A stretch of 10,221 nt of DNA from Tannerella sp. (GTDB lineage Bacteria; Bacteroidota; Bacteroidia; Bacteroidales; Tannerellaceae): the NCBI GenBank assembly GCA_031268395.1, contig JAIRXI010000181.1, positions 1 through 10,221 of the forward strand, in the 5' to 3' direction. The notes beneath the pieces were generated by a model. The model was not told where the DNA came from. It saw only the letters and a list, made by a program, of their open reading frames with translations, and did not search any database. Shown piece by piece: positions 1,150-10,221 of the stretch. Made by a program: the position numbers and the translations under genes. Numbering within the stretch: the stretch's first letter is position 1; every line of letters begins with the position of its first letter.

Positions 1150-1173
1150 GATGAAATTTTTCATCTATCTTTG
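1150..1173 (+). promoter_or_regulatory. Probable gntP promoter with overlapping operator-like palindrome
   Basis: TATCTTTG (1166-1173) fits the Bacteroidota -7 box TAnnTTTG and lies 15 bases before the chosen ATG, giving a very short leader. No good -33 box is seen at the usual distance. Instead the spacer contains GATGAAA-TT-TTTCATC (1150-1165), a 7-bp palindrome touching the -7 box. A weak -33 with a palindrome in the spacer suggests binding of an activator or repressor, perhaps one sensing the sugar acid; no regulator gene is in the window. Confidence 0.45.
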
Positions 1174-1188
1174 CCGAAAATCGTATAT

Positions 1189-2541
1189 ATGTCATTATTG
1201 CCGCTTTGCATACTGGCGTTCAGCATCGTCTTATTGCTGTTTATGGTGCTGAAACTTAAGATTCACGCCTTTCTGTCGCTGCTGATCGTATCCGTCTTTC
1301 TGGGCATGGCTACCGGGATGCCGATGAATGCGATTCTGGAAAGCATGACGGAGGGGATGAGTTCCACGCTGGGATTTGTTGCGACGGTTGTCGGTATCGG
1401 GGCCATTTTCGGACAGGTGCTGGAATCCTCGGGCGGCGCCGAATCGCTGGCGCGCTCGCTGGTAACAAAGTTCGGAAAGGAGAAAGCGCCCTATTCGCTG
1501 GCTGCTGCCGGTTTCCTGGTAGCGATTCCCGTTTTTCTTGATGTCGGGTTCATCATCCTTGCGCCTGTCCTCTACGCACTGGCGAAAGACACGAAAAAAT
1601 CCCTGCTGTTCTATGCCATTCCGCTGCTGGCCGGCCTGGCCGTGACGCACGCCTTTATTCCGCCCACGCCCGGCCCGGTGGCCGTAGCCGAGATTCTCCA
1701 GGTCGATCTGGGTTGGCTGATATTCTTCGGCGCCGTGATCGGCATCCCGGTCACCCTGGTCGCCGGCCCGCTTTTCGGGAGATATATCGGAAACCGGATG
1801 TACGTGAAAACGCCCGATTTTTTCAAGGAGGAAGATCCTCTCCGCGAGACGACGCGCCTGCCGTCTTTCTGGCAGGTAACGGGCATGATCATCATCCCCC
1901 TGGCGCTGATTGTGGCTAACACGGTGACGGGTGTCTGGGCAAAAGCGCACGGCATGACCGACACGTTCCCGGTGCACCTGATTACCTTCCTGGGCCACCC
2001 GTTTATAGCCCTGCTGATAGCCACTTTGGTGGCTATATACACGCTGGGCATCCGGCGGGGATTTACGCGGACGGCGATACTGGAATTAAGCTCCAAAGCC
2101 CTTAATCCGGCGGGGCTGATCATCCTGGTGACCGGTGCGGGCGGCGTTTTCAAGCAGTTGCTGGTAGACAGCGGGATCGGGGTGGCGCTGGCGGAGAGCA
2201 TGTCCGGGTCGGCATTGCCGCCCCTTGTGCTGGCCTACCTGCTGGCGCTGATCATCCGCGTGACGCAGGGATCTGCCACTGTCGCCATGATTACGTCGGC
2301 CGGAATCATGGCGCCCCTGTTGAGCGCCTGCCTCCTCTCCGAACCGCACAAGGCGCTGATCGTAATAGCCATCGCTTCCGGTGCAACCACACTTTCGCAC
2401 GTCAACGACAGCGGGTTCTGGCTGGTAGGGAAATACCTCGGCATGAACGAAAAGCAAACGCTCCGCTCATGGACGGTGATGGAAACCATCATCTCGATTA
2501 CCGGTTTTACGCTGGCTTTCGGTTTAAGTTTCTTTTTCTGA
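1189..2541 (+). CDS. gntP: GntP-family gluconate:H+ symporter
   Basis: This 450-residue inner-membrane permease would import gluconate or a related sugar acid with protons. The sequence is hydrophobic throughout, consistent with about 12-14 membrane segments, and has the usual length for the GntP family. Family-typical blocks are visible: GFVATVVGIGAIFGQVLESSGGA (about 62-84), the VAIPVFLDVGFI block (about 111-122), the proline-rich THAFIPPTPGPVAVAEIL (about 153-170), GSATVAM in the C-terminal half and LSHVNDSGFW near the end. An in-frame TTG lies six codons upstream (1171), but it overlaps the -7 box, so the ATG at 1189 opening MSLLPL, as in relatives, is preferred. No gluconate kinase or dehydratase gene is adjacent, so the exact substrate (gluconate, ketogluconate, hexonates) is open. 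It is transcribed alone and ends at the hairpin terminator at 2583-2619. Confidence 0.9.
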   Translation: MSLLPLCILAFSIVLLLFMVLKLKIHAFLSLLIVSVFLGMATGMPMNAILESMTEGMSSTLGFVATVVGIGAIFGQVLESSGGAESLARSLVTKFGKEKAPYSLAAAGFLVAIPVFLDVGFIILAPVLYALAKDTKKSLLFYAIPLLAGLAVTHAFIPPTPGPVAVAEILQVDLGWLIFFGAVIGIPVTLVAGPLFGRYIGNRMYVKTPDFFKEEDPLRETTRLPSFWQVTGMIIIPLALIVANTVTGVWAKAHGMTDTFPVHLITFLGHPFIALLIATLVAIYTLGIRRGFTRTAILELSSKALNPAGLIILVTGAGGVFKQLLVDSGIGVALAESMSGSALPPLVLAYLLALIIRVTQGSATVAMITSAGIMAPLLSACLLSEPHKALIVIAIASGATTLSHVNDSGFWLVGKYLGMNEKQTLRSWTVMETIISITGFTLAFGLSFFF

Positions 2542-2553
2542 TGCTGTTGTGAA

Positions 2554-2580
2554 GATGAACCGTTCATCGTTCATCGTTAA
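2554..2580. repeat. CGTTCAT heptamer repeat, locus 1
   Basis: CGTTCAT occurs twice in tandem (2561-2574) and is closed by CGTTAA. The first copy also pairs with GATGAAC (2554-2560) just before it. The same heptamer with the same CGTTAA ending recurs at 9822-9848 with three copies. It lies in the 3' intergenic space of gntP. Confidence 0.8.
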
Positions 2581-2582
2581 AT

Positions 2583-2619
2583 ACGTAACGGGAAACGCGG
2601 CAGACGTTTCCCGTTACGT
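2583..2619. terminator. Bidirectional terminator between converging genes
   Basis: A perfect 15-bp stem (2583-2597 with 2605-2619, arm beginning ACGTAACGGG) encloses a 7-base loop CGGCAGA. It stands between the stop of gntP on the plus strand and the stop of the DUF1080 gene on the minus strand, so it likely serves both. Long T-runs are lacking; AAA before and TTT after the stem give weak tracts in both directions. Confidence 0.82.
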
Positions 2620-2630
2620 GTTTGCGGCCG

Positions 2631-3362
2631 TTACAGGGATTTTATCCTGAAGTTCCTGAATTCCACTTTCATGGGAGGACCCACATGCACTTGAACGCCA
2701 AGCAGTCCGGAGAGCCTTCGATTCGCCGCATCGCTGTCCGTCACATCGCTCGCCAGCACTCCGTTGAGGTAGTGCTGCAGGCGGTTACCTTTGGCAACGA
2801 TACGGTACTCGTTCCAGTCGTTTTTCCGGATGTGCCGGTTTAGCGGGTCGTGCTGAAAATCAATCGCGCTTACGTCCTGATGGGACGGCGAACGGTAAAG
2901 AGAGTCGATCACGACGGTCTGTCCACGCAGTGCCAGGAACTGGCGTCCCCGTTCCTCGTAATTTTGTCCCGTATACTGATTTCTTCCGTCGATATCGGCC
3001 TGGTAGCCTTTCAGTGCATAAGGCACGTCCGCTACCCGCTCGTTGCGATAGCTCACTCCGCTGTTTCCGTTTTCCGAAATCCGGTATTCCACTTTCAGTT
3101 CAAAATCTTCCAGGACGAGGTCTTTTCTGATGATGAACGTGTTCCGGCTCAGAAGGGTGGCAGGCGTGACTTCGCCTACCATGCAGCCGTTTTCGACACG
3201 CCAGTAGACCGGATCATACTCCCAGCCGTCCAGCGATTGCCCGTCGAAAACGGACTGGTATCCGCTACAGCACGTGCACAGGACGATTCCGCCGTAAACC
3301 GGAAGCATCCGGACATAGCGGCACAAGGTCTTTGTCTTCATACGGATTGCGTGAACGTTCAT
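2631..3362 (-). CDS. DUF1080 (3-keto-disaccharide hydrolase-like) probable lipoprotein
   Basis: A 243-residue exported protein. The N-terminus is basic, then hydrophobic (about 19-30), and ends in a cysteine cluster LCTCCSG (28-34), a plausible though imperfect lipobox. The rest is one DUF1080 domain, a concanavalin-like beta sandwich: it opens with SVFDGQSLDGWE (37-48), has FELKVEYRISENGNSGVSYR (87-106) in the middle, and closes with LLGVQVHVGPPMKVEFRNFRIK (220-241). Family members are annotated as 3-keto-glycoside hydrolases or carbohydrate-binding proteins, so action on a modified sugar outside the cytoplasm is likely; the substrate is unknown. The start at 3362 is chosen because its ATG overlaps the stop of the upstream peptidase gene (ATGA) and GAGGGA lies eight bases before it. 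An ATG at 3341 (MKTKTLC) is an alternative giving a shorter signal peptide. Second gene of a two-gene operon. Confidence 0.83.
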   Translation of the reverse strand: MNVHAIRMKTKTLCRYVRMLPVYGGIVLCTCCSGYQSVFDGQSLDGWEYDPVYWRVENGCMVGEVTPATLLSRNTFIIRKDLVLEDFELKVEYRISENGNSGVSYRNERVADVPYALKGYQADIDGRNQYTGQNYEERGRQFLALRGQTVVIDSLYRSPSHQDVSAIDFQHDPLNRHIRKNDWNEYRIVAKGNRLQHYLNGVLASDVTDSDAANRRLSGLLGVQVHVGPPMKVEFRNFRIKSL

Positions 3363-4903
3363 TCGTAAAGTCCCTCGCGCGAAAGCAGATGGTCCAGGTT
3401 GGCCACGCCCAGTCCGACAATGGCCATCACCGTTGCTGCATGTCGCTGGTATTCGGGGATGCTCTTCGTATACAGGTCCCGTTCCGTATGCCATATTTCG
3501 CGGTAATTGAAGTTGTAGCCCCTGACGTCGTCTTCGTCCAGCGCAATGGCAGGTATGCCCTTGATGGCGAAGACGGAGGCATCCGTCCCGCTGAGGCGTA
3601 CGGGTTTCGCCCGCGGGCCGGTTTGCTTCACCTCGAAGGGTATTTCGGGATGGATGGAAGAGAGCGGGGCGCAGATCCGGACGAAGTCGGGATACATGGC
3701 TTTCGGCACGCTGATGCTTACCGGAGGCAGCGGGCCGCCGTCGCGGTTGAAGACGTTGGAAATCCGGTCCCACTGTTCGGGATGCGAGGCGGCCCACGCC
3801 TGTGCGCCCAGCAGTCCGTATTCCTCGCCGGCAAAGGCGATAAAGAGCATGCTGCGTTTCGGACGGGCGCCCGAGGCGGCTACCAGACGGGCGGCTTCGA
3901 TGACGGCGGACACGCCCGACCCGCAGTCTACGCCGCCGGTGGCCGCGTCGTGCGAATCCAGGTGGCCGCTCAGGATGACGTATTCGTCGGGGTAGTCGCT
4001 TCCCCGGATTTTCCCGGCCACGCTGTAATATTTCACCGGCCCCAGCTTGAAATGGTTGCGGATGTCGAACTCCAGCTCGAACACGCGCCGCTCCTGCACC
4101 ATTTGCCGGATGATTCCGTACTGGTGTTCGTCGAGTTTAATGTCGGGGAGTTCGGGGAGGCGGTCGAAGGTCATGGTCGAATCCTTGACCACGCTCCGGT
4201 CATACAGCGCCACCAGCGGCACCGTTGCCGACTGGATGATGCCCAGAATGCCCGCCTCGCGCATTTCCCCGTAGAACAGGGCCGGCTCGTCGAGCAGCGT
4301 CAGCAGGGTGTCGTTCCTGTTTTTCAGGCGGTTGTTTTCGGCAATTTCCCGGTTTCGTTTGCGGATTTCCCCGTTCCGGGCAATGACGGACGCACGGATG
4401 GAATCGGCCGCGGCGCCGTGCGGAATGGACCAGCCGGTGTTTTTGCCGGTGATCAGCACCCATGCCCCTTTCAGCGCTCCTTTCATGCGGTCAAATTCCT
4501 CGCGCGTTTTCGGCTCAAGCAGGACGTGTCCACGTTGCAGCCCTTTCGTCCCGGAAGAGTATGACGGTGTGACGAAATGCAGTGCCATGGCCTGATCGCC
4601 GCCCAGCATCCGCCCGAACCACGGGCCGCGGTTGAATCCTACCGGCACGGTTCCGCCCTCGTTCCGCTCCACTTCCAGCCCCCATTCGGCAAAACTGGCA
4701 GCCACCCAGTCGACGGCGTTGTCATAGGCATCCGAGCCTATCGGACGGCCGCCAAAACGGTTGGTGAGCACATCCAGGTGATTCATCACCCGGTTGTCCG
4801 CCGTCCCGAGTTCGATCAGTTTTTGGACTGCCGCATCCTGTGCCGACGCAGTCGCAAGCGCTATGCCTATCCCGACAGCGCAAAGTAATACTGTTTTCTT
4901 CAT
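3359..4903 (-). CDS. Secreted M28-family metallopeptidase
   Basis: A 514-residue di-zinc aminopeptidase-type enzyme, probably periplasmic or secreted. It begins with a clean signal peptide (MKKTVLLCAVGIGIALATASA, cleavage near 21/22). The N-terminal half contains a PA-like insert region (about 120-250), and the catalytic half carries all expected M28 metal and catalytic residues: H314 and D316 in GHLDSHD, bridging D326 in GGVDCGSG, E360-E361 in FAGEEYG, D388 in NRDGG and H472 in IWHTERD. The commonly seen asparagine or acidic residue after the bridging aspartate is a cysteine here. A GTDASVF block (439-445) stands where relatives often have SDH-x-x-F. Its likely job is trimming residues from peptides or amide-linked compounds in the envelope. 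It is the first gene of an operon with the DUF1080 protein, overlapping by four bases, and has its own -7 box upstream. Confidence 0.9.
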   Translation of the reverse strand: MKKTVLLCAVGIGIALATASAQDAAVQKLIELGTADNRVMNHLDVLTNRFGGRPIGSDAYDNAVDWVAASFAEWGLEVERNEGGTVPVGFNRGPWFGRMLGGDQAMALHFVTPSYSSGTKGLQRGHVLLEPKTREEFDRMKGALKGAWVLITGKNTGWSIPHGAAADSIRASVIARNGEIRKRNREIAENNRLKNRNDTLLTLLDEPALFYGEMREAGILGIIQSATVPLVALYDRSVVKDSTMTFDRLPELPDIKLDEHQYGIIRQMVQERRVFELEFDIRNHFKLGPVKYYSVAGKIRGSDYPDEYVILSGHLDSHDAATGGVDCGSGVSAVIEAARLVAASGARPKRSMLFIAFAGEEYGLLGAQAWAASHPEQWDRISNVFNRDGGPLPPVSISVPKAMYPDFVRICAPLSSIHPEIPFEVKQTGPRAKPVRLSGTDASVFAIKGIPAIALDEDDVRGYNFNYREIWHTERDLYTKSIPEYQRHAATVMAIVGLGVANLDHLLSREGLYE

Positions 4904-4928
4904 CTAATTCAGTTTTTAAGTTCGGGCA

Positions 4929-4936
4929 CAAATGTA
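4929..4936 (-). promoter_or_regulatory. Probable promoter of the M28-DUF1080 operon (-7 box)
   Basis: On the minus strand TACATTTG matches the Bacteroidota -7 consensus exactly and lies 25 bases before the ATG at 4903. A clear -33 TTTG is not visible at the usual distance; upstream there is a run of eight T. It is divergent from the promoter at 5068-5096. Confidence 0.55.
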
Positions 4937-4994
4937 TTCAAAAAAAACGTACCGGCCCACATCTCCGGGCGATCTTCCCGAATCCGGCAGGGAT

Positions 4995-5012
4995 CACGGC
5001 CGTGCCGGCACG
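4995..5012. repeat. Overlapping short palindromes in the divergent intergenic region
   Basis: CACGGCCGTG (4995-5004) and CGTGCCGGCACG (5001-5012) are perfect palindromes sharing CGTG, in the middle of the 375-base space between two divergent operons. They could be a regulator binding site serving one or both sides. No regulator is in the window. Confidence 0.4.
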
Positions 5013-5067
5013 TCGTCGACGAAGTCCCCCTGACTCTCCTCCATTTTATAAATAACATTAATTTCGA

Positions 5068-5096
5068 TTGATGCTGTATAAGTGTATGTACATTTG
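5068..5096 (+). promoter_or_regulatory. Probable promoter of the GH38-MFS operon
   Basis: TTG (5068-5070), an 18-base spacer and TACATTTG (5089-5096) fit the Bacteroidota consensus well. The start of transcription would be near 5103, about 175 bases before the GH38 start codon. Confidence 0.6.
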
Positions 5097-5102
5097 CGGG
5101 GA

Positions 5103-5278
5103 TTTAATCGGCAAAGCCGGTTTCATAGCCATATTAGACGGATAGCGGGAATGAATCAGACTGTATGCGGCGTGGATTTGTGCAGAGAACCGGAAACCTT
5201 CCGGCAAGTTGCGGAGAAAAGATGTTCCGGAGGCAGATGCATCAACCCGAACCGCACCCAGTATTAAATAAATTAACG
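5103..5278 (+). other. Long 5' leader of the GH38 gene
   Basis: About 175 transcribed bases precede the ATG. They contain a small hairpin CGGC-AAAG-CCG just after the promoter and CCGGAA-ACC-TTCCGG (5190-5204). An in-frame ATG at 5165 would extend the protein by 38 residues, but that extension is hydrophilic and would bury the signal peptide, so it is treated as leader. No known riboswitch fold was recognised. The bases just before the start are AT-rich (TAAATAAATTAACG), as is common before Bacteroidota start codons. Confidence 0.45.
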
Positions 5279-7924
5279 ATGGAACGAACATTAAAAAACG
5301 GTCTTTTAGCGATCGGTGCGTTGGCGGTATTTGCGGAAGCGCCGGCGCAAAACGCCTCCTATTTCAGGGGAGGGAAATTATACCTTGTCAACTCAAGTCA
5401 CCAGGACATTGCGTGGATGGACAGTCCGGACGAATGTATCCGCTTCCGTGACGAACAGATGATTACGCCGGCGCTGAAGCGGCTGGCGGAGAGTGAGTCG
5501 TACTGTTTTTCGGTCGAAGACGCCCTTTCCCTGCGGGAATATCTCGAACGTCACCCCGACCGCTACAGCGACATCCTGAAGTATACGCGGGAGGGACGGC
5601 TGGAATGGGGCGCCACCAGCAAGCAGCCCTACCCGTCGATGTATGACGGGGAAGCGCTCGTCAGGCAAACGTACTTCGGACGGAAATGGCTGCGGAAAAC
5701 ACTGCCGGGCGGCGACTTCCGCACGGCATACAACGAAGACGTCCCCGGCGTAGCCCTGCAACTCCCGCAAATCCTGGCCAGAGCGGGCATTCCCTATTAT
5801 CAGATCAGCCGTCACCAGCCCGGTTTTTACCGGTGGTTCAGCCCCGACGGCAGCTCCGTCCTGGCGTGGACGCCGGGACAGTATCACGACAAAACGATGC
5901 CCATTGCCGAAGCGCCGACGGAAGCAGCACGCACAGATACCCTGATCCGTTACCTCAGCGAGTTTGACGACTATTACAGAAAACGGCATATCCCGCCGGT
6001 GCGTCTCGTGCTCTATTCCTTCGACTTCTCCAAGCCGGTGAACTGGGACAGGTACATGGACGACTGGAACGGCGAAGCACAGGGAGAGAATGCAAGAGGA
6101 TTGCCCCTGATCGGATATTCCACGTCGACCCGGGTGATGGACGAGATTACTGCGGGACAGGATGCGAAATTCGACGAACTGCTCGGCGAACGCCCGAACG
6201 TATGGCTCTACATACACGGACCCTCACATCGCCGTGCCTTGAAAGCCGGTCGGGAAGCAAGCCGCCTGCTGACGGCCGCGGAAAAATTCTCCACCTTCGA
6301 CGCCCTGCTCGAAAACACGTTCAGCCACTACCCTGCCCGCGAACTGACCGGCGCATGGGAAGCAGCCATCTATCCCGATCACGGCTGGGGCGGCAACCGG
6401 GGCGACATTACCGACCGCCTCTTCCGCGACAAGCTGGAATTTGCACGCGACTGCGGACAGGCGCTGCTCGACCGCTCGCTCACCTCCATCGCCCGGCGCA
6501 TCAACCTGAACAGCGCATACCGGCAGGCCGTGACCGTCTTCAATCCCCTCTCCTGGGAACGTACCGATCCGGTAACACTCACGCTCGATGTGGAGGGGCG
6601 GGCAAATACACATTACCGGCTGGTCGACGCCGATGGCCGCGAAATCCCCTGTCAGTTTACGGACTGTCCGCCCACCGGCAAAAGAGACGAAGTGATCACG
6701 CTCCTGTTTGTGGCCGAACAGGTGCCGGCGCTGGGCTATAAGACCTACTACCTGACCGAAGGAGCGCCTCCGGCAGGCAACGACCGGATTCCATCGGCCG
6801 TCCCTGCCTACGAAAACAACTATTACAGGGCTGTCCTCGGCGACGGCGGCATCGAAAGTCTGTATGACCGGGAACTGAAACGGGAATTTTTCCGCAACGA
6901 CAAGTTTTCGGGCGGCGAACTGTTCACCATGCAGTCCGTCGGCAACGGCGCGGGCGAATTTACCGATGTGCAGCAGCCGACCATGGAAGGCTTCGACCAG
7001 CTGCGCAATTACCGGCAGCAGTGGCAGTGTGTCGAGACCGGCGCCGTGCGCGATGTCTTCCAGACCGTCCAGCCGCTGAAGGAAACGCAGGCCGTCGTGC
7101 GGATAGCCTTCTACAGGACCGTCAAACGGATAGACGTAGAGGTCGACCTGAACCGTTTCAGCGGCGAGAACTGGCGCGAGTTCCGGCTCGCTTTTCCGGT
7201 CAACATGAAACAGGCCAGCGTGGCCTATGAAGTCCCGATGGGCGTCGTTGAAGTCGGCAAAGACGAAATAAAGGGCGCCGCCGGATATTCCAAGGCCACG
7301 CAGATATACGGCACTCCCTGCCGCGACGTGCACCCGCGCGAGGTGCAGGACTGGTTCTCGGCATCGGACGGAAAAGCCGGCCTGACCATCAGTTCGGACG
7401 TGGCCGTCTTCGACTGGATCGATCCGACCGACCGCCCGGCGGATTACGTCATCCTGCAACCCGTCCTGCTGGCCAGCCGCAAAAGCTGCCACTGGCTGGG
7501 CAATGCCTACATACAGCCCGGCAACCATTCCTGCCGCTTCTCCCTCTACACACATGCCGGCGACTGGCACAACGGCTACCGGCAGGGCACGCAGGCGCGG
7601 CAGACACTCAAAGTGGCCGTTACCGATACGGAAAAATATCAGGGCTTCCTCCCCGAACAGTTCGGTTTCGGCGCCCTGAGCGGACAGGGCGCTGTGGTCA
7701 GCACCATAAAAAAATGCGAAGACGACGATTCCGTCATCCTCCGCTACTACAACATCGAAGGCAACGATGCCGAGGTGACGTTCAGCCTGTTCAGGGATAT
7801 CGAATCGCTCCGCCGTACAAACCTGATCGAGGAAGAACCGGTCGCCGGGACGTTTTCCGGAAAAGGATTCTCGTACAGACTGGGGCATCACGCGATCGAA
7901 ACGTTTAAAATAGGAACCAAATAA
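5279..7924 (+). CDS. Secreted glycoside hydrolase family 38 (alpha-mannosidase-like) enzyme
   Basis: An 881-residue exported enzyme, likely periplasmic, expected to hydrolyse alpha-mannosidic bonds by the retaining, zinc-dependent GH38 mechanism. The signal peptide is MERTLKNGLLAIGALAVFAEAPAQ (cleavage near 23-25). The catalytic domain starts with YLVNSSHQDIAW, where H41 and D43 correspond to the zinc ligand pair H-x-D of the family. D154 in AYNEDVPGV is the likely nucleophile and zinc ligand, and H368 in YPDHGWGGNRGD the likely fourth ligand. A helical middle part (about 330-430) precedes the C-terminal beta-sandwich half (about 440-880), as in other GH38 proteins. The length is in the usual range. 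It is followed by an MFS carrier after a 64-base gap containing a strong hairpin, suggesting that the released sugar is taken up by the next gene product. Exact linkage and substrate cannot be read from the sequence; other sugar specificity is possible. Confidence 0.86.
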   Translation: MERTLKNGLLAIGALAVFAEAPAQNASYFRGGKLYLVNSSHQDIAWMDSPDECIRFRDEQMITPALKRLAESESYCFSVEDALSLREYLERHPDRYSDILKYTREGRLEWGATSKQPYPSMYDGEALVRQTYFGRKWLRKTLPGGDFRTAYNEDVPGVALQLPQILARAGIPYYQISRHQPGFYRWFSPDGSSVLAWTPGQYHDKTMPIAEAPTEAARTDTLIRYLSEFDDYYRKRHIPPVRLVLYSFDFSKPVNWDRYMDDWNGEAQGENARGLPLIGYSTSTRVMDEITAGQDAKFDELLGERPNVWLYIHGPSHRRALKAGREASRLLTAAEKFSTFDALLENTFSHYPARELTGAWEAAIYPDHGWGGNRGDITDRLFRDKLEFARDCGQALLDRSLTSIARRINLNSAYRQAVTVFNPLSWERTDPVTLTLDVEGRANTHYRLVDADGREIPCQFTDCPPTGKRDEVITLLFVAEQVPALGYKTYYLTEGAPPAGNDRIPSAVPAYENNYYRAVLGDGGIESLYDRELKREFFRNDKFSGGELFTMQSVGNGAGEFTDVQQPTMEGFDQLRNYRQQWQCVETGAVRDVFQTVQPLKETQAVVRIAFYRTVKRIDVEVDLNRFSGENWREFRLAFPVNMKQASVAYEVPMGVVEVGKDEIKGAAGYSKATQIYGTPCRDVHPREVQDWFSASDGKAGLTISSDVAVFDWIDPTDRPADYVILQPVLLASRKSCHWLGNAYIQPGNHSCRFSLYTHAGDWHNGYRQGTQARQTLKVAVTDTEKYQGFLPEQFGFGALSGQGAVVSTIKKCEDDDSVILRYYNIEGNDAEVTFSLFRDIESLRRTNLIEEEPVAGTFSGKGFSYRLGHHAIETFKIGTK

Positions 7925-7929
7925 AAAAG

Positions 7930-7972
7930 GTCCGGGTCGATACCGGCGGAGCATCTCCACATCGACCCGGAC
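7930..7972 (+). other. Intercistronic hairpin between GH38 and MFS genes
   Basis: GTCCGGGTCGAT (7930-7941) pairs perfectly with ATCGACCCGGAC (7961-7972). The 19-base interior can form a smaller stem GGAG-CAT-CTCC. No T-run follows, so a full terminator is unlikely. It may protect the 3' end of the upstream message or lower expression of the carrier relative to the enzyme. Confidence 0.78.
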
Positions 7973-7988
7973 GGAAACCGAAAGAATC

Positions 7989-9146
7989 ATGAACCGTAAA
8001 CCGGATTATTCGACACAAAAACAGTTGCCCGTCCTGTTCGGGTTTTTTATCATGGGATTTGTAGACGTGGTTGGAATTTCCACCAGCTATGTCAAGCAGG
8101 CATTCGGATTGAGCGACACGCTTGCCAACCTCCTGCCGATGATGGTATTTGTATGGTTTGCCCTATGTTCGCTGCCAACGGGCCTCCTGATGAGGCGAAC
8201 GGGTCGCCGGACAATGGCGCTTGTCAGCGCAGCCGTAACGGCGGTGGCCATGCTGATGCCCGTGGCAAGCTATTCGTTTGTCTCCTTTTTGACGGCCTTT
8301 GCCCTGCTGGGGATCGGCAATACGATCCTGCAAGTTTCACTCAATCCGCTGCTGACGGACGTGGTCGAGGCGCGCAAAGTCACCGGTTTCCTGACGCTGG
8401 GGCAGTTTGTCAAGGCCGTGTCGTCGTTTCTGGGTCCCGTACTGGTCGGGGTGGCGGCGAGCCGGTTCGGCAACTGGAGTTATGTGTTTCCGGTATATGC
8501 CGCTGCGACGCTGCTTTTTTTCGTCTGGCTGTATGCCACCCCCGTGGCGGAAACCCGGGAGACCGGCACGGCACATGCAGGATTCGGCGTTGTCGCGTCG
8601 CTGTTGAGAAACAGGCAAATGCTGATCTGGCTATCCCTGATCGTACTGATCGTCGGGTTCGAGATCGGACTGATGACCGCCGTTCCCAAATACCTGGAGG
8701 AGCGCTGCGCCCTGCCCCTGGAAAAGGGCGGTCTGGGGTGCAGCCTGTATTATGCCGCCCGCATGTTGGGCACGTTTGCAGGTTCCTTTTTACTGGTGCG
8801 GATGTCGTCGCGCCGGTTCATCCTGTTCACCCTGGCCGCCGCCATGCTGTTCTTCGGACTGTTCATGCTGGCCGGAAGCGTATGGGCGCTGATGACCGGC
8901 CTGTTTGGCATCGGGCTGATGTGTGCAAACGTATTTGCCATCGTCTTTGCCGCGGCCATCCGGTCGGATGCGTCGAAAGCCAACGAAATCTCTGCCCTGA
9001 TGATTATGGGAGTAGCGGGAGGCGCCCTGGTGCCGCCGGTCATGGGCATAATCGCCGACGCAGGCAGTCAGTGGAGCAGTCTGTTTGTCCCTCTGGCCAT
9101 ACTGACGTATCTGTGGGCGGGTTCGTTTCAGGCAATAAAAAAATAG
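7989..9146 (+). CDS. MFS sugar transporter (fucose/glucose-type carrier)
   Basis: A 385-residue inner-membrane carrier with about 12 hydrophobic segments and no signal peptide. The loop between helices 2 and 3 carries the MFS signature GLLMRRTGRR (65-74). The start LPVLFGFFIMGFVDVVGISTSYVKQAFGLSD and the GIGNTILQVSLNPLL stretch resemble the fucose:H+ / glucose-galactose (FHS-type) carriers of Bacteroidota. The likely role is proton-driven import of a monosaccharide, plausibly the product of the preceding GH38 enzyme. It starts at the ATG just after AAAGAATC, and no better upstream start exists. The substrate is inferred from context only. Confidence 0.86.
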   Translation: MNRKPDYSTQKQLPVLFGFFIMGFVDVVGISTSYVKQAFGLSDTLANLLPMMVFVWFALCSLPTGLLMRRTGRRTMALVSAAVTAVAMLMPVASYSFVSFLTAFALLGIGNTILQVSLNPLLTDVVEARKVTGFLTLGQFVKAVSSFLGPVLVGVAASRFGNWSYVFPVYAAATLLFFVWLYATPVAETRETGTAHAGFGVVASLLRNRQMLIWLSLIVLIVGFEIGLMTAVPKYLEERCALPLEKGGLGCSLYYAARMLGTFAGSFLLVRMSSRRFILFTLAAAMLFFGLFMLAGSVWALMTGLFGIGLMCANVFAIVFAAAIRSDASKANEISALMIMGVAGGALVPPVMGIIADAGSQWSSLFVPLAILTYLWAGSFQAIKK

Positions 9147-9152
9147 ACCGTC

Positions 9153-9245
9153 ATGAAAGAATCAATCGAAGCGTACCGGCAGGAAGGAAAAGACCATGAT
9201 CCCTGCCTGATTCGGGAACAGCGGCAGACGAAACCCGGTGTCTGA
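9153..9245 (+). CDS. 30-residue ORF, possible stump of a third operon gene
   Basis: The ATG lies six bases after the MFS stop and the frame ends at TGA 9243-9245, immediately before the left arm of the large inverted repeat (9252). The product starts MKESIEAYRQEGKDHDPCLI and is hydrophilic. It looks like the amino terminus of an ordinary soluble protein rather than a random frame, and the spacing is operon-like. I infer that a longer gene may have been cut off when the repeat element arrived. It could also be a chance ORF; no family was recognised. Confidence 0.35.
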   Translation: MKESIEAYRQEGKDHDPCLIREQRQTKPGV

Positions 9246-9251
9246 AAAGGC

Positions 9252-9339
9252 CGTCATACGTTCAGCGTATGGCCTGGCCTGTTCTTCCGGCGTATGCGGC
9301 GGGATTTCACCGCTACATTCCTTCGAGCAAACGAACCTC
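9252..9339. repeat. Outer inverted repeat, left arm
   Basis: About 77 of 88 positions match the reverse complement of 10135-10221, with one 1-base gap. It begins with a hairpin CATACG-TTCAG-CGTATG (9255-9271) that may serve as 3' end structure for the MFS operon, and contains CGGCGGGATTTCACCGCTAC in the middle. The match reaches the window edge on the right side, so the true arm may be longer. No coding sense is seen. Confidence 0.88.
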
Positions 9340-9357
9340 ATTTCCACCTCCTTTTAA

Positions 9358-9441
9358 TAACAAAACAACCTCAGTAGCGGCAAGCAGAGGATATGGGCGG
9401 ACCTCATTACCTCCTTATCCCATACTGAGGTTGTTTTGTTA
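9358..9441. mobile_element. 84-bp palindromic mini-element flanked by TTAA
   Basis: TAACAAAACAACCTCAGTA (9358-9376) and its exact reverse complement (9423-9441) enclose 46 bases. TTAA stands on both sides (9354-9357 and 9442-9445), and the perfect pairing extends through it to 24 bp. The corresponding place in the right outer arm reads CCTTTTAACCCG without the hairpin, so this looks like an insertion with an empty site in the same window. The interior can pair further (GGATA with TATCC). Because TTAA is itself palindromic, the target duplication is suggestive rather than proven. It carries no gene and would need a transposase in trans. Confidence 0.6.
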
Positions 9442-9450
9442 TTAAACCCA

Positions 9451-9806
9451 AAATGTCCATTAGACATTTCCCCGTCGTGTCTGGAAGAGGGCCTGCCGGT
9501 AAAAAACAGCCCGTCCCGGCCAGGGACGGAATGTTGGTAGAAAACGGAATGCAGCAGAATCACCCGTCCCGGCCGGGACGGAATGTGAACGAAAAAGGGG
9601 GCACGGCGGACACCTGCCGGGGCTGTGTCCATCCGCCTGTCTTACCCTGCGCCAAATAAGGCCCTTCCGACCACATTCCGTCCCTGGCCGGGACGGGTGG
9701 TGTACCCCGTGTTTCCTTTTCTACCCACATGCCGTCCCTGGCCGGGACGGGCCGTTTTACCGGCAGGGCGCCTTCCGGACACGACGGGGTAGTGTCTAAT
9801 GGACAT
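9451..9806. repeat. Palindromic repeat unit A
   Basis: The two halves are inverted copies centred near 9630. Both ends carry ATGTCCATTAGACA-type sequence, then CCCCGTCGTGTC-GGAAG, CTGCCGGTAAAA and two copies of the GC palindrome. The centre (about 9590-9665) is unique within the unit and has its own stem GGACAC (9608-9613) with GTGTCC (9625-9630). The open frames across it are by-products of the repeats. Confidence 0.85.
9563..9751 (+). repeat. 189-bp direct repeat, copy 1
   Basis: It matches 9855-10043 over its whole length with four substitutions and no gaps, at an offset of 292 bases. It covers three palindrome copies and the unit centre. The high identity means a recent duplication or conversion between the units. 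Confidence 0.9.
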
Positions 9807-9821
9807 GTACACAATGCCCCT

Positions 9822-9848
9822 CGTTCATCGTTCATCGTTCATCGTTAA
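9822..9848. repeat. CGTTCAT heptamer repeat, locus 2
   Basis: Three tandem CGTTCAT units end in CGTTAA. They sit exactly where unit B should have its missing left arm. The same heptamer and the same ending occur at 2561-2580, next to gntP. Confidence 0.85.
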
Positions 9849-9854
9849 GGAAGG

Positions 9855-10043
9855 CCCGTCCCGGCCGGGACGGAATGTGAACGAAAAAGGGGGCACGGCG
9901 GACACCAGCCGGGGCTGTGTCCATCCGCCTGTCTTACCCTGCGCCAAATACGGCCCTTCCGACCACATTCCGTCCCTGGCCGGGACGGGTGGTGTTCCCC
10001 GTGTTTCCTTTTCTACCAACATGCCGTCCCTGGCCGGGACGGG
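9855..10043 (+). repeat. 189-bp direct repeat, copy 2 (start of truncated unit B)
   Basis: 185 of 189 positions equal copy 1. Unit B continues to 10123 with an inverted copy of the GTCTAATGGACAT end sequence. It lacks the first palindrome copy and left end, which are replaced by the heptamer repeat. Confidence 0.9.
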
Positions 10044-10134
10044 TTGACGGGCGGAGATTCCGTTTGCGGCCGGCAGGCTGTCCTCTCTTCCGGACACGAC
10101 AGAGCAGCGTCTAATGGACATTTCGGGTTAAAAG

Positions 10135-10221
10135 GAGGTTCGTTTGTTCGGAGGAATGTAGCGGTGAAGTCCCGCCGCATACACCGGAGGCACATGCCAG
10201 GCCCACGCTGAACGTGTAACG
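10135..10221. repeat. Outer inverted repeat, right arm (runs off the window)
   Basis: This is the reverse-complement partner of 9252-9339. Near its end it has a hairpin CACG-CTGAA-CGTG, matching the left arm's CATACG stem with one compensatory base-pair change and a one-base deletion. It lacks the TTAA mini-element between it and the palindrome unit. Confidence 0.88.

Follow-up and report, generated by a model that had tools for sequence, protein, structure and literature searches.

A gene-less element with 16-bp inverted ends, nested inside a second repeat of a Tannerella genome, is likely moved in trans by an IS1380 transposase

The window analyzed here is an entire contig of 10,221 bases (G000:C270) from a draft Tannerella sp. 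genome (3.13 Mb, 425 contigs, 82% complete), and the repeat region at its right end consists of two repeat layers rather than a single palindrome that was duplicated. The inner layer, which we call element A, has 16-bp inverted ends and 5-bp direct repeats, is enclosed by a second element with inverted repeats, and probably reached this site through an IS1380 transposase acting in trans. Its ends, the repeated TTAAA next to them, host sites that are free of A, its copy number, its NTNAN flank, and its intergenic placement can all be seen in the DNA itself. We read the mobility of A from these marks of transposition, and it is the IS1380 identity of the enzyme that we infer.

An earlier note, made from the letters alone, had described arms, palindromes, a direct repeat, and heptamers in this region, and all of these were recovered by our repeat analysis of the window. 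The outer arms (9271-9348 and 10126-10203) are 78 nt long and 87% complementary, with 80 of 92 aligned positions identical. A perfect inverted repeat of 24 nt is found at 9353-9376 and 9423-9446, inner arms at 9453-9504 and 9755-9806 agree at 88%, and a 189-bp direct repeat (9563-9751 and 9855-10043) is 98% identical. Several GC-rich palindromes and a heptamer run near 9821-9846 are also present. These parts had been read as a single element of about 500 bp that included arms, end boxes, and core. Instead, the outer arms together with a 94-bp hairpin constitute a separate repeat family that is also found without the core, and the core (element A) sits inside this other repeat, flanked on both sides by a 5-bp direct repeat.

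Among 81 stretches fetched from the same genome, 12 hold the left arm of this host element (9231-9352, plus strand), which has 15 places in total, the window's two included. Several copies of the arm begin at the position equal to 9231; likewise, the arm in the window begins near 9231 rather than at 9252, where the repeated unit had been thought to start, and a broken reading frame (9153-9245) runs into it. The central hairpin (9353-9446) has perfect arms of 24 nt and a loop of 46 nt, and is found at 21 places in 18 of the 81 stretches. When folded as DNA, the left arm and hairpin together (9231-9446) give a z-score of -8.8. The inverted right arm (10133-10221, minus strand) is cut by the contig end, such that the window ends inside the host element repeat and the right border of this repeat lies beyond the contig.

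The broken frame is what remains of a small gene on the plus strand, whose translation gives 30 residues and then a stop. It resembles the start of an uninterrupted 140-aa gene in JAISXV010000113.1 (L062), a named relative in which this gene is whole, sits directly after the orthologous MFS gene, and has a weak Cupin_2 match (20.4 bits, below the cut-off of 27.2). No match to the element was found in JAISXV010000113.1. The small gene was likely broken by the host element, before A arrived. The other neighbors (window 1171-9146) are ordinary and encode a GntP permease, a 3-keto-disaccharide hydrolase domain, an M28 peptidase, a GH38 mannosidase, and an MFS transporter. The best named match of the MFS protein is from a Prevotellaceae bacterium MAG (78% identity).

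Host sites that lack A are common. A host motif, GGTTGTTTTGTTATTAA (at most one mismatch), is present in 37 copies in the fetched stretches, and 31 of these run on uninterrupted, a count that includes the window's own opposite arm and in which the two arms of one element count twice. Three of the 37 copies meet an A end (in the window, L141, and L146), and three meet another flank. Removal of A and one TTAAA from the window yields ...GTTATTAAAAGGAGGT..., which is equal to the uninterrupted host form. A host arm on both sides of an insert was observed in the window alone.

This arrangement could in principle have been produced during assembly if repeats were wrongly joined from fragments. The window terminates inside a repeat, and 29 of the 150 ends of wholly fetched contigs have an element match no more than 60 bp away (these contigs were chosen for holding matches), as might be expected from such joining. 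However, the outer A ends are bordered by matching TTAAA, the joined flanks equal uninterrupted copies found elsewhere, and composite units with exact duplications are present on other contigs. The outer arms, for which the earlier note had named an assembly artefact as a refuting outcome, are just 87% alike and are unlikely to be one. Overall, we consider misassembly to be a highly improbable account of the region. As to the host family more generally, copies at L137 5037-5408 (C358) and L175 3199-3812 (C419) carry outer ends of a separate type (about CACCSGTAAAACCMTGTGT), and a longer direct repeat (11 and 9 bp) is nearby in two of three paired copies; these features suggest that the host family uses a different transposase.

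Element A in the window is a composite of 681 bp (9447-10127) that has two inward-facing ends, an exact 5-bp repeat, and no recognizable gene. An end search located the left terminal repeat CCCAAAATGTCCATTA (9447-9462, plus strand) and the right terminal repeat CCCGAAATGTCCATTA (10112-10127, minus strand), which are equal at 15 of 16 bases. Beyond them are the two copies of the putative target-site duplication TTAAA (9442-9446 and 10128-10132), which match exactly over 5 bp and no further. Repeat and hairpin-motif analysis placed a REP-like pair of GC-rich hairpins at 9509-9590 (plus strand), and repeat analysis placed an inverted REP-like pair at 9665-9753 (minus strand). Between these pairs lies the center of the first A copy (9591-9664), which is found at 42 places in 38 of the 81 stretches, the window included. 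This first copy finishes in an eroded right end (9793-9812, minus strand), where GTACAC replaces the GTTGGG of most other copies.

A spacer with the heptamer repeat CGTTCAT follows (9813-9854, plus strand), and the interval 9809-9854 is found at 40 places in 31 of the 81 stretches, again including the window. The second A copy (9855-10127, plus strand) is missing its left part, opens with the second member of the 189-bp direct repeat, and closes with a segment (10044-10127) that matches 99 places of the A-end type in the 81 stretches. At position 476 of L188 there is an eroded junction identical to the window's 9793-9812, which makes it likely that the eroded form, or whatever it derives from, has been copied too. 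The internal duplication thus appears to be two A copies with a heptamer spacer between them, and the outer duplication suggests that these parts moved jointly. None of seven frames inside or overlapping A has an NCBIfam match, and the one Pfam match among them (DMRT5, E 0.023) is far below cut-off. The longest frame inside A is at most 98 aa. The earlier view of a non-autonomous, MITE-like, multi-copy element with an internal duplication, in which the second copy is without its left part, is supported by these findings.

The ends of A are abundant. The 16-bp end consensus CCCRAMATGTCCATTA (at most one mismatch) was found at 169 places in the own genome, compared to three for a reversed control pattern, and an end box, ATGTCCATTAGACA, was found at the same tolerance at 114 places compared to two for its control. 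Furthermore, at least 163 matches to the repeat region were obtained in the own genome when 40 of 302 candidates were scored. The region is thus multi-copy, and the objection that it might be unique in its genome is excluded. Matches to a 362-base core were found in 9 of 41 relative genomes, all from one genus. The 16-bp end (at most one mismatch) is present in 25 of 41 genomes of the genus, many of which have only one or two sites, a number explicable by chance.

Pairs of these ends were evaluated for flanking duplications in the 81 stretches from the own genome (739 kb), which hold 144 ends at no more than 4 mismatches in 19. All inward-facing ends within 4 kb were paired, whether adjacent or not, to give 47 pairs. 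An exact 5-bp direct repeat is present at 18 of these, whereas 10,000 shuffles of the flanks gave a mean of 3.5 and a maximum of 10. Shifted controls gave 0, 3, and 1 exact pairs at offsets 1, 2, and 3, respectively, and none at offsets 4-15, and the longest exact match is 5 bp in all 18 duplicated pairs. Exact duplications are found at 14 of 33 adjacent pairs and at 4 of 14 non-adjacent pairs. The window pair (9447 and 10127) is among these four, as its eroded inner end intervenes. Units with exact duplications span 51 to 963 bp, and the remaining 29 pairs do not have an exact duplication. Congener genomes gave 15 inward pairs, 7 of them with an exact duplication, a result that is only weakly above shuffles (P 0.03).

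The flanks also conform to a narrow target. NTNAN is present at every one of the 79 ends that deviate by no more than one base from the consensus, at 112 of the 114 that deviate by no more than two, and at 135 of 144 overall, compared to 4.2% of all positions and 13.9% of AT-rich 5-mers in the background. Among congener ends, 46 of 54 fit this pattern. All 18 duplicated pairs lie outside open reading frames, whereas 82% of random points lie inside them, as judged by a simple map (frames of at least 120 codons, flanks joined) rather than by annotation. As far as sequence can tell, the 5-bp duplication and the strict NTNAN flank are marks of transposition into a strict symmetrical target. Some 16-bp ends enclose unlike interiors (L154 3046-3225, L205 5024-5254, and L139 855-1084), one of which is AT-rich and the others of which carry CACGGAG repeats, and an exact 5-bp duplication is absent from these three pairs. 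Another genome, G050, has 44 ends that form pairs such as C31:5595-5903 and C276:8095-8282, and the few interiors inspected there begin unlike A.

Inside A, GC-rich hairpins form two inverted pairs and are followed by AATGT or ATGT; one hairpin of each pair then carries TGGTAGAA or a near form of it. These features raise the question of whether a Y1 (RAYT) transposase spread the hairpin pairs as REP sequences, with A as a BIME-like mosaic. Elements of the REP, BIME, and REPIN types that are associated with RAYT share with A an intergenic placement and paired, opposite GC-rich hairpins with a conserved tail, judging from the parts of two reports consulted (PMC3733652, PMC6006769). Moreover, the paired hairpins with their conserved tail (ATGTTGGTAGAA) are found without A ends in other species. 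Tail-bearing hairpins with no A end within about 150 bases were seen by eye in congeners, and a search of 393 genomes from the order detected a strict tagged hairpin motif in nine, which represent nine families, with the highest number (52) in the own genome.

However, a search for the Y1 transposase domain (PF01797) gave no match in the own genome (82% complete) or in G015, though the same search was positive in 13 of 25 genomes. Movement with a 5-bp duplication follows the 16-bp ends, which differ from the ends of REP-type units and set the moving unit of A. End pairs as short as 50-53 bp exist, and for one of these (L146 10361-10411), 51 bp long and devoid of hairpins, the 5-bp duplication is exact. 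Likewise, of the 40 strict tagged hairpins in stretches of the own genome, 34 have an A end no more than 450 bp away, and the remaining six are no farther than about 310 bases from a contig end. Spread of A as a REP or BIME unit is accordingly very unlikely, and a RAYT system as its mover is largely refuted by the missing Y1 match in the own genome. The earlier suggestion of a BIME therefore fails as to membership, even though the GC-rich hairpins within A do resemble REPs.

Because such short end pairs and some unlike interiors occur, and because hairpin pairs exist without A ends in other species, the REP-like hairpins are best read as likely cargo of A. When 18 duplicated interiors were clustered, 15 fell into a single cluster, by direct or chained similarity, and three remained singletons, so one cargo type dominates in the own genome. 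An A interior in G015 is 94% identical to that in the own genome, and its adjoining gene has no match in the own genome, a comparison that bears neither for nor against horizontal transfer between the two genomes. In G180, from another family, the tagged hairpin has tails on both sides and gives overlapping plus and minus matches (C23:9769-9812, C56, C58, and C78).

A conserved structured RNA or regulatory hairpin, retained for its fold, would agree with the strict intergenic placement of A and with its very strong folding. Folding of the inner 681 bases reaches -411 kcal/mol, well beyond chance, compared to -276 +/- 9 for 20 dinucleotide shuffles (z-score of -15). Yet this strength follows from a region made of inverted repeats, which must fold anyway. 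In an alignment of nine copies, both partners differ in only 5 of 128 predicted pairs, and covariation contributes an unfavorable term (+7.45). The size range of the duplicated units also speaks against a retained fold, and an Rfam search of the region gave no match. The RNA reading, which had also been offered earlier, is thus extremely improbable.

A candidate mover is indicated by pieces of IS1380-type transposases, which lie beside such ends at G000:C76, G049:C346, C358, C157, and G001:C200. At G000:C76, in the own genome, the end is equal to CCCAACATGTCCATTA at 14 of 16 bases and is about 200 bp from a partial IS1380 frame. At G049:C346, the ends are separated by 1484 bp around a transposase piece. 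In the G049 copies on C346 and C358, the TAA stop codon of the transposase is the inner end of the 16-bp repeat, and the repeat and the gene therefore belong together. All six ends at IS1380 pieces carry the NTNAN flank. The NCBIfam IS1380 model was the best match for each of the six pieces submitted, which come from four loci; none of their scores reaches the curated cut-off of 180 bits.

The own genome and the congener loci examined yielded no intact IS1380 gene; the own copy is partial, and the others are broken or partial. Across the genus, Pfam PF13701 has matches in 15 of 41 genomes, eight of them above cut-off, and part of those loci were examined for ends. One frame (L235 2128-2853, on G000:C76) overlaps the start of the broken IS1380 gene and has no Pfam match. 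By eye, it resembles an IS110-type transposase.

These data must also be weighed against the view that A is mobile through the same ends but is served by another transposase, with the IS1380 copies merely another user of the ends. The IS1380 model has no match in 5 of 10 end-bearing genomes checked, including G050 and G015 (11 ends, 99% complete), and only weak matches in G004 and G021. A clear end of the A type was not found at the IS1380-like copies of G017, G019, G042, G044, and G045. In addition, the sole two-ended IS copy (L268 1485-2968) has no target duplication, as it is flanked by TTTAT on the left and ATAAA on the right, and no intact copy with both ends and a target duplication was found among those examined. 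Other DDE genes are available; one of these, of the IS4 type, lies on C341 roughly 20 bp ahead of an A element.

Regardless, the ends are found at IS1380 pieces in three genomes, they share the NTNAN flank, and the stop codon is inside the repeat in two copies. The own genome is incomplete, and the partner may be absent from the assembly. If the partner was lost after a burst, or is lacking from the assembly, some of the missing IS1380 matches would be accounted for. We therefore regard a mover other than IS1380 as unlikely. The IS4-type gene on C341 was evaluated as a mover and rejected: IS4 is the family it matches best, the start of the contig truncates it, the adjoining A end faces away from it, and no end was found upstream of it within the stretch examined.

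Under the preferred IS1380 reading, the enzyme would bind two inward-facing 16-bp ends and cut there, and the released segment would be inserted at NTNAN with duplication of 5 bp. Only the intact outer ends would be needed, such that anything between them travels. The cargo in the window would be the A copy with its eroded right end, the heptamer spacer, and the second A copy without its left part. A more tentative extension, which we think is possible but somewhat doubtful, is that these ends act as a universal border. Any two facing ends among the approximately 170 would then mobilize whatever intervenes, and composites would keep forming, including arrays of REP-like hairpins that have no REP transposase of their own.

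By its sequence features, A can be classed as a MITE, in that it is short and gene-less and has inverted ends, a target duplication, and dispersed copies; its movement in trans is predicted. Its derivation from IS1380 agrees with the shared ends and the 5-bp duplication, and an intact two-ended copy with a duplication was not among the copies found. We compared A with members of the IS1380 family, namely IS1247, ISPme1, and ISEcp1, as well as IS612-IS615 and IS942 of Bacteroides. The 16-bp terminal repeat and 5-bp target duplication of A are like those listed for IS1247 (PMC3281130, Table 2), and DDE transposase pieces are found at the same ends. Unlike these elements, A has no transposase gene, spans 51-963 bp, and has ends that far outnumber gene-bearing copies here. 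A review, as far as consulted, states that the IS1380 family also mobilizes adjacent DNA by misreading end-like sequences, and that a loose requirement for ends lets ISEcp1 and ISPme1 acquire neighboring genes (PMC9330008).

The main text of a review of prokaryotic MITEs (PMC10969869) does not name IS1380, and no IS1380-linked MITE was evident from titles or abstract openings in a limited look at the literature. One genome paper reports an IS1380 element and 147 MITEs and, in the part consulted, does not state a relation between them (PMC3542288). Element A is thus a very abundant, unnamed repeat of the genus that appears tied to a transposase family for which that limited look gave no described MITE. 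Its strict NTNAN flank, 5-bp duplication, and composites would allow a natural test of the minimal end needs of IS1380. Such repeats probably also break assemblies of these genomes.

Similar mosaics bounded by two ends are known among the TIMEs, Tn3-derived miniature elements that are non-autonomous and make duplications of 5-6 bp. According to the part of the report consulted (PMC4133298), TIMEs have 38-bp ends of the Tn3 type and were caught in trap plasmids, whereas A is known from sequence alone. Another parallel is offered by the MITEs of Porphyromonas gingivalis (MITE239, MITE464/PgRS, MITE700, and BrickBuilt), which like A are gene-less, intergenic, and built with internal tandem repeats. 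BrickBuilt_18 is a case of one P. gingivalis MITE nested in another, the ends of these MITEs match IS5-family elements, and BrickBuilt duplications are irregular, as described in the sections consulted (PMC4596501). Element A differs in that its ends match IS1380 pieces, its duplication is 5 bp, its flank is NTNAN, and its spacer holds a 7-bp repeat. This tandem repeat (CGTTCAT or ATGAACG) recurs beside many A ends and host-element copies, for example at 9821-9846 in the window and in L007, L016, L142, L229, and others.
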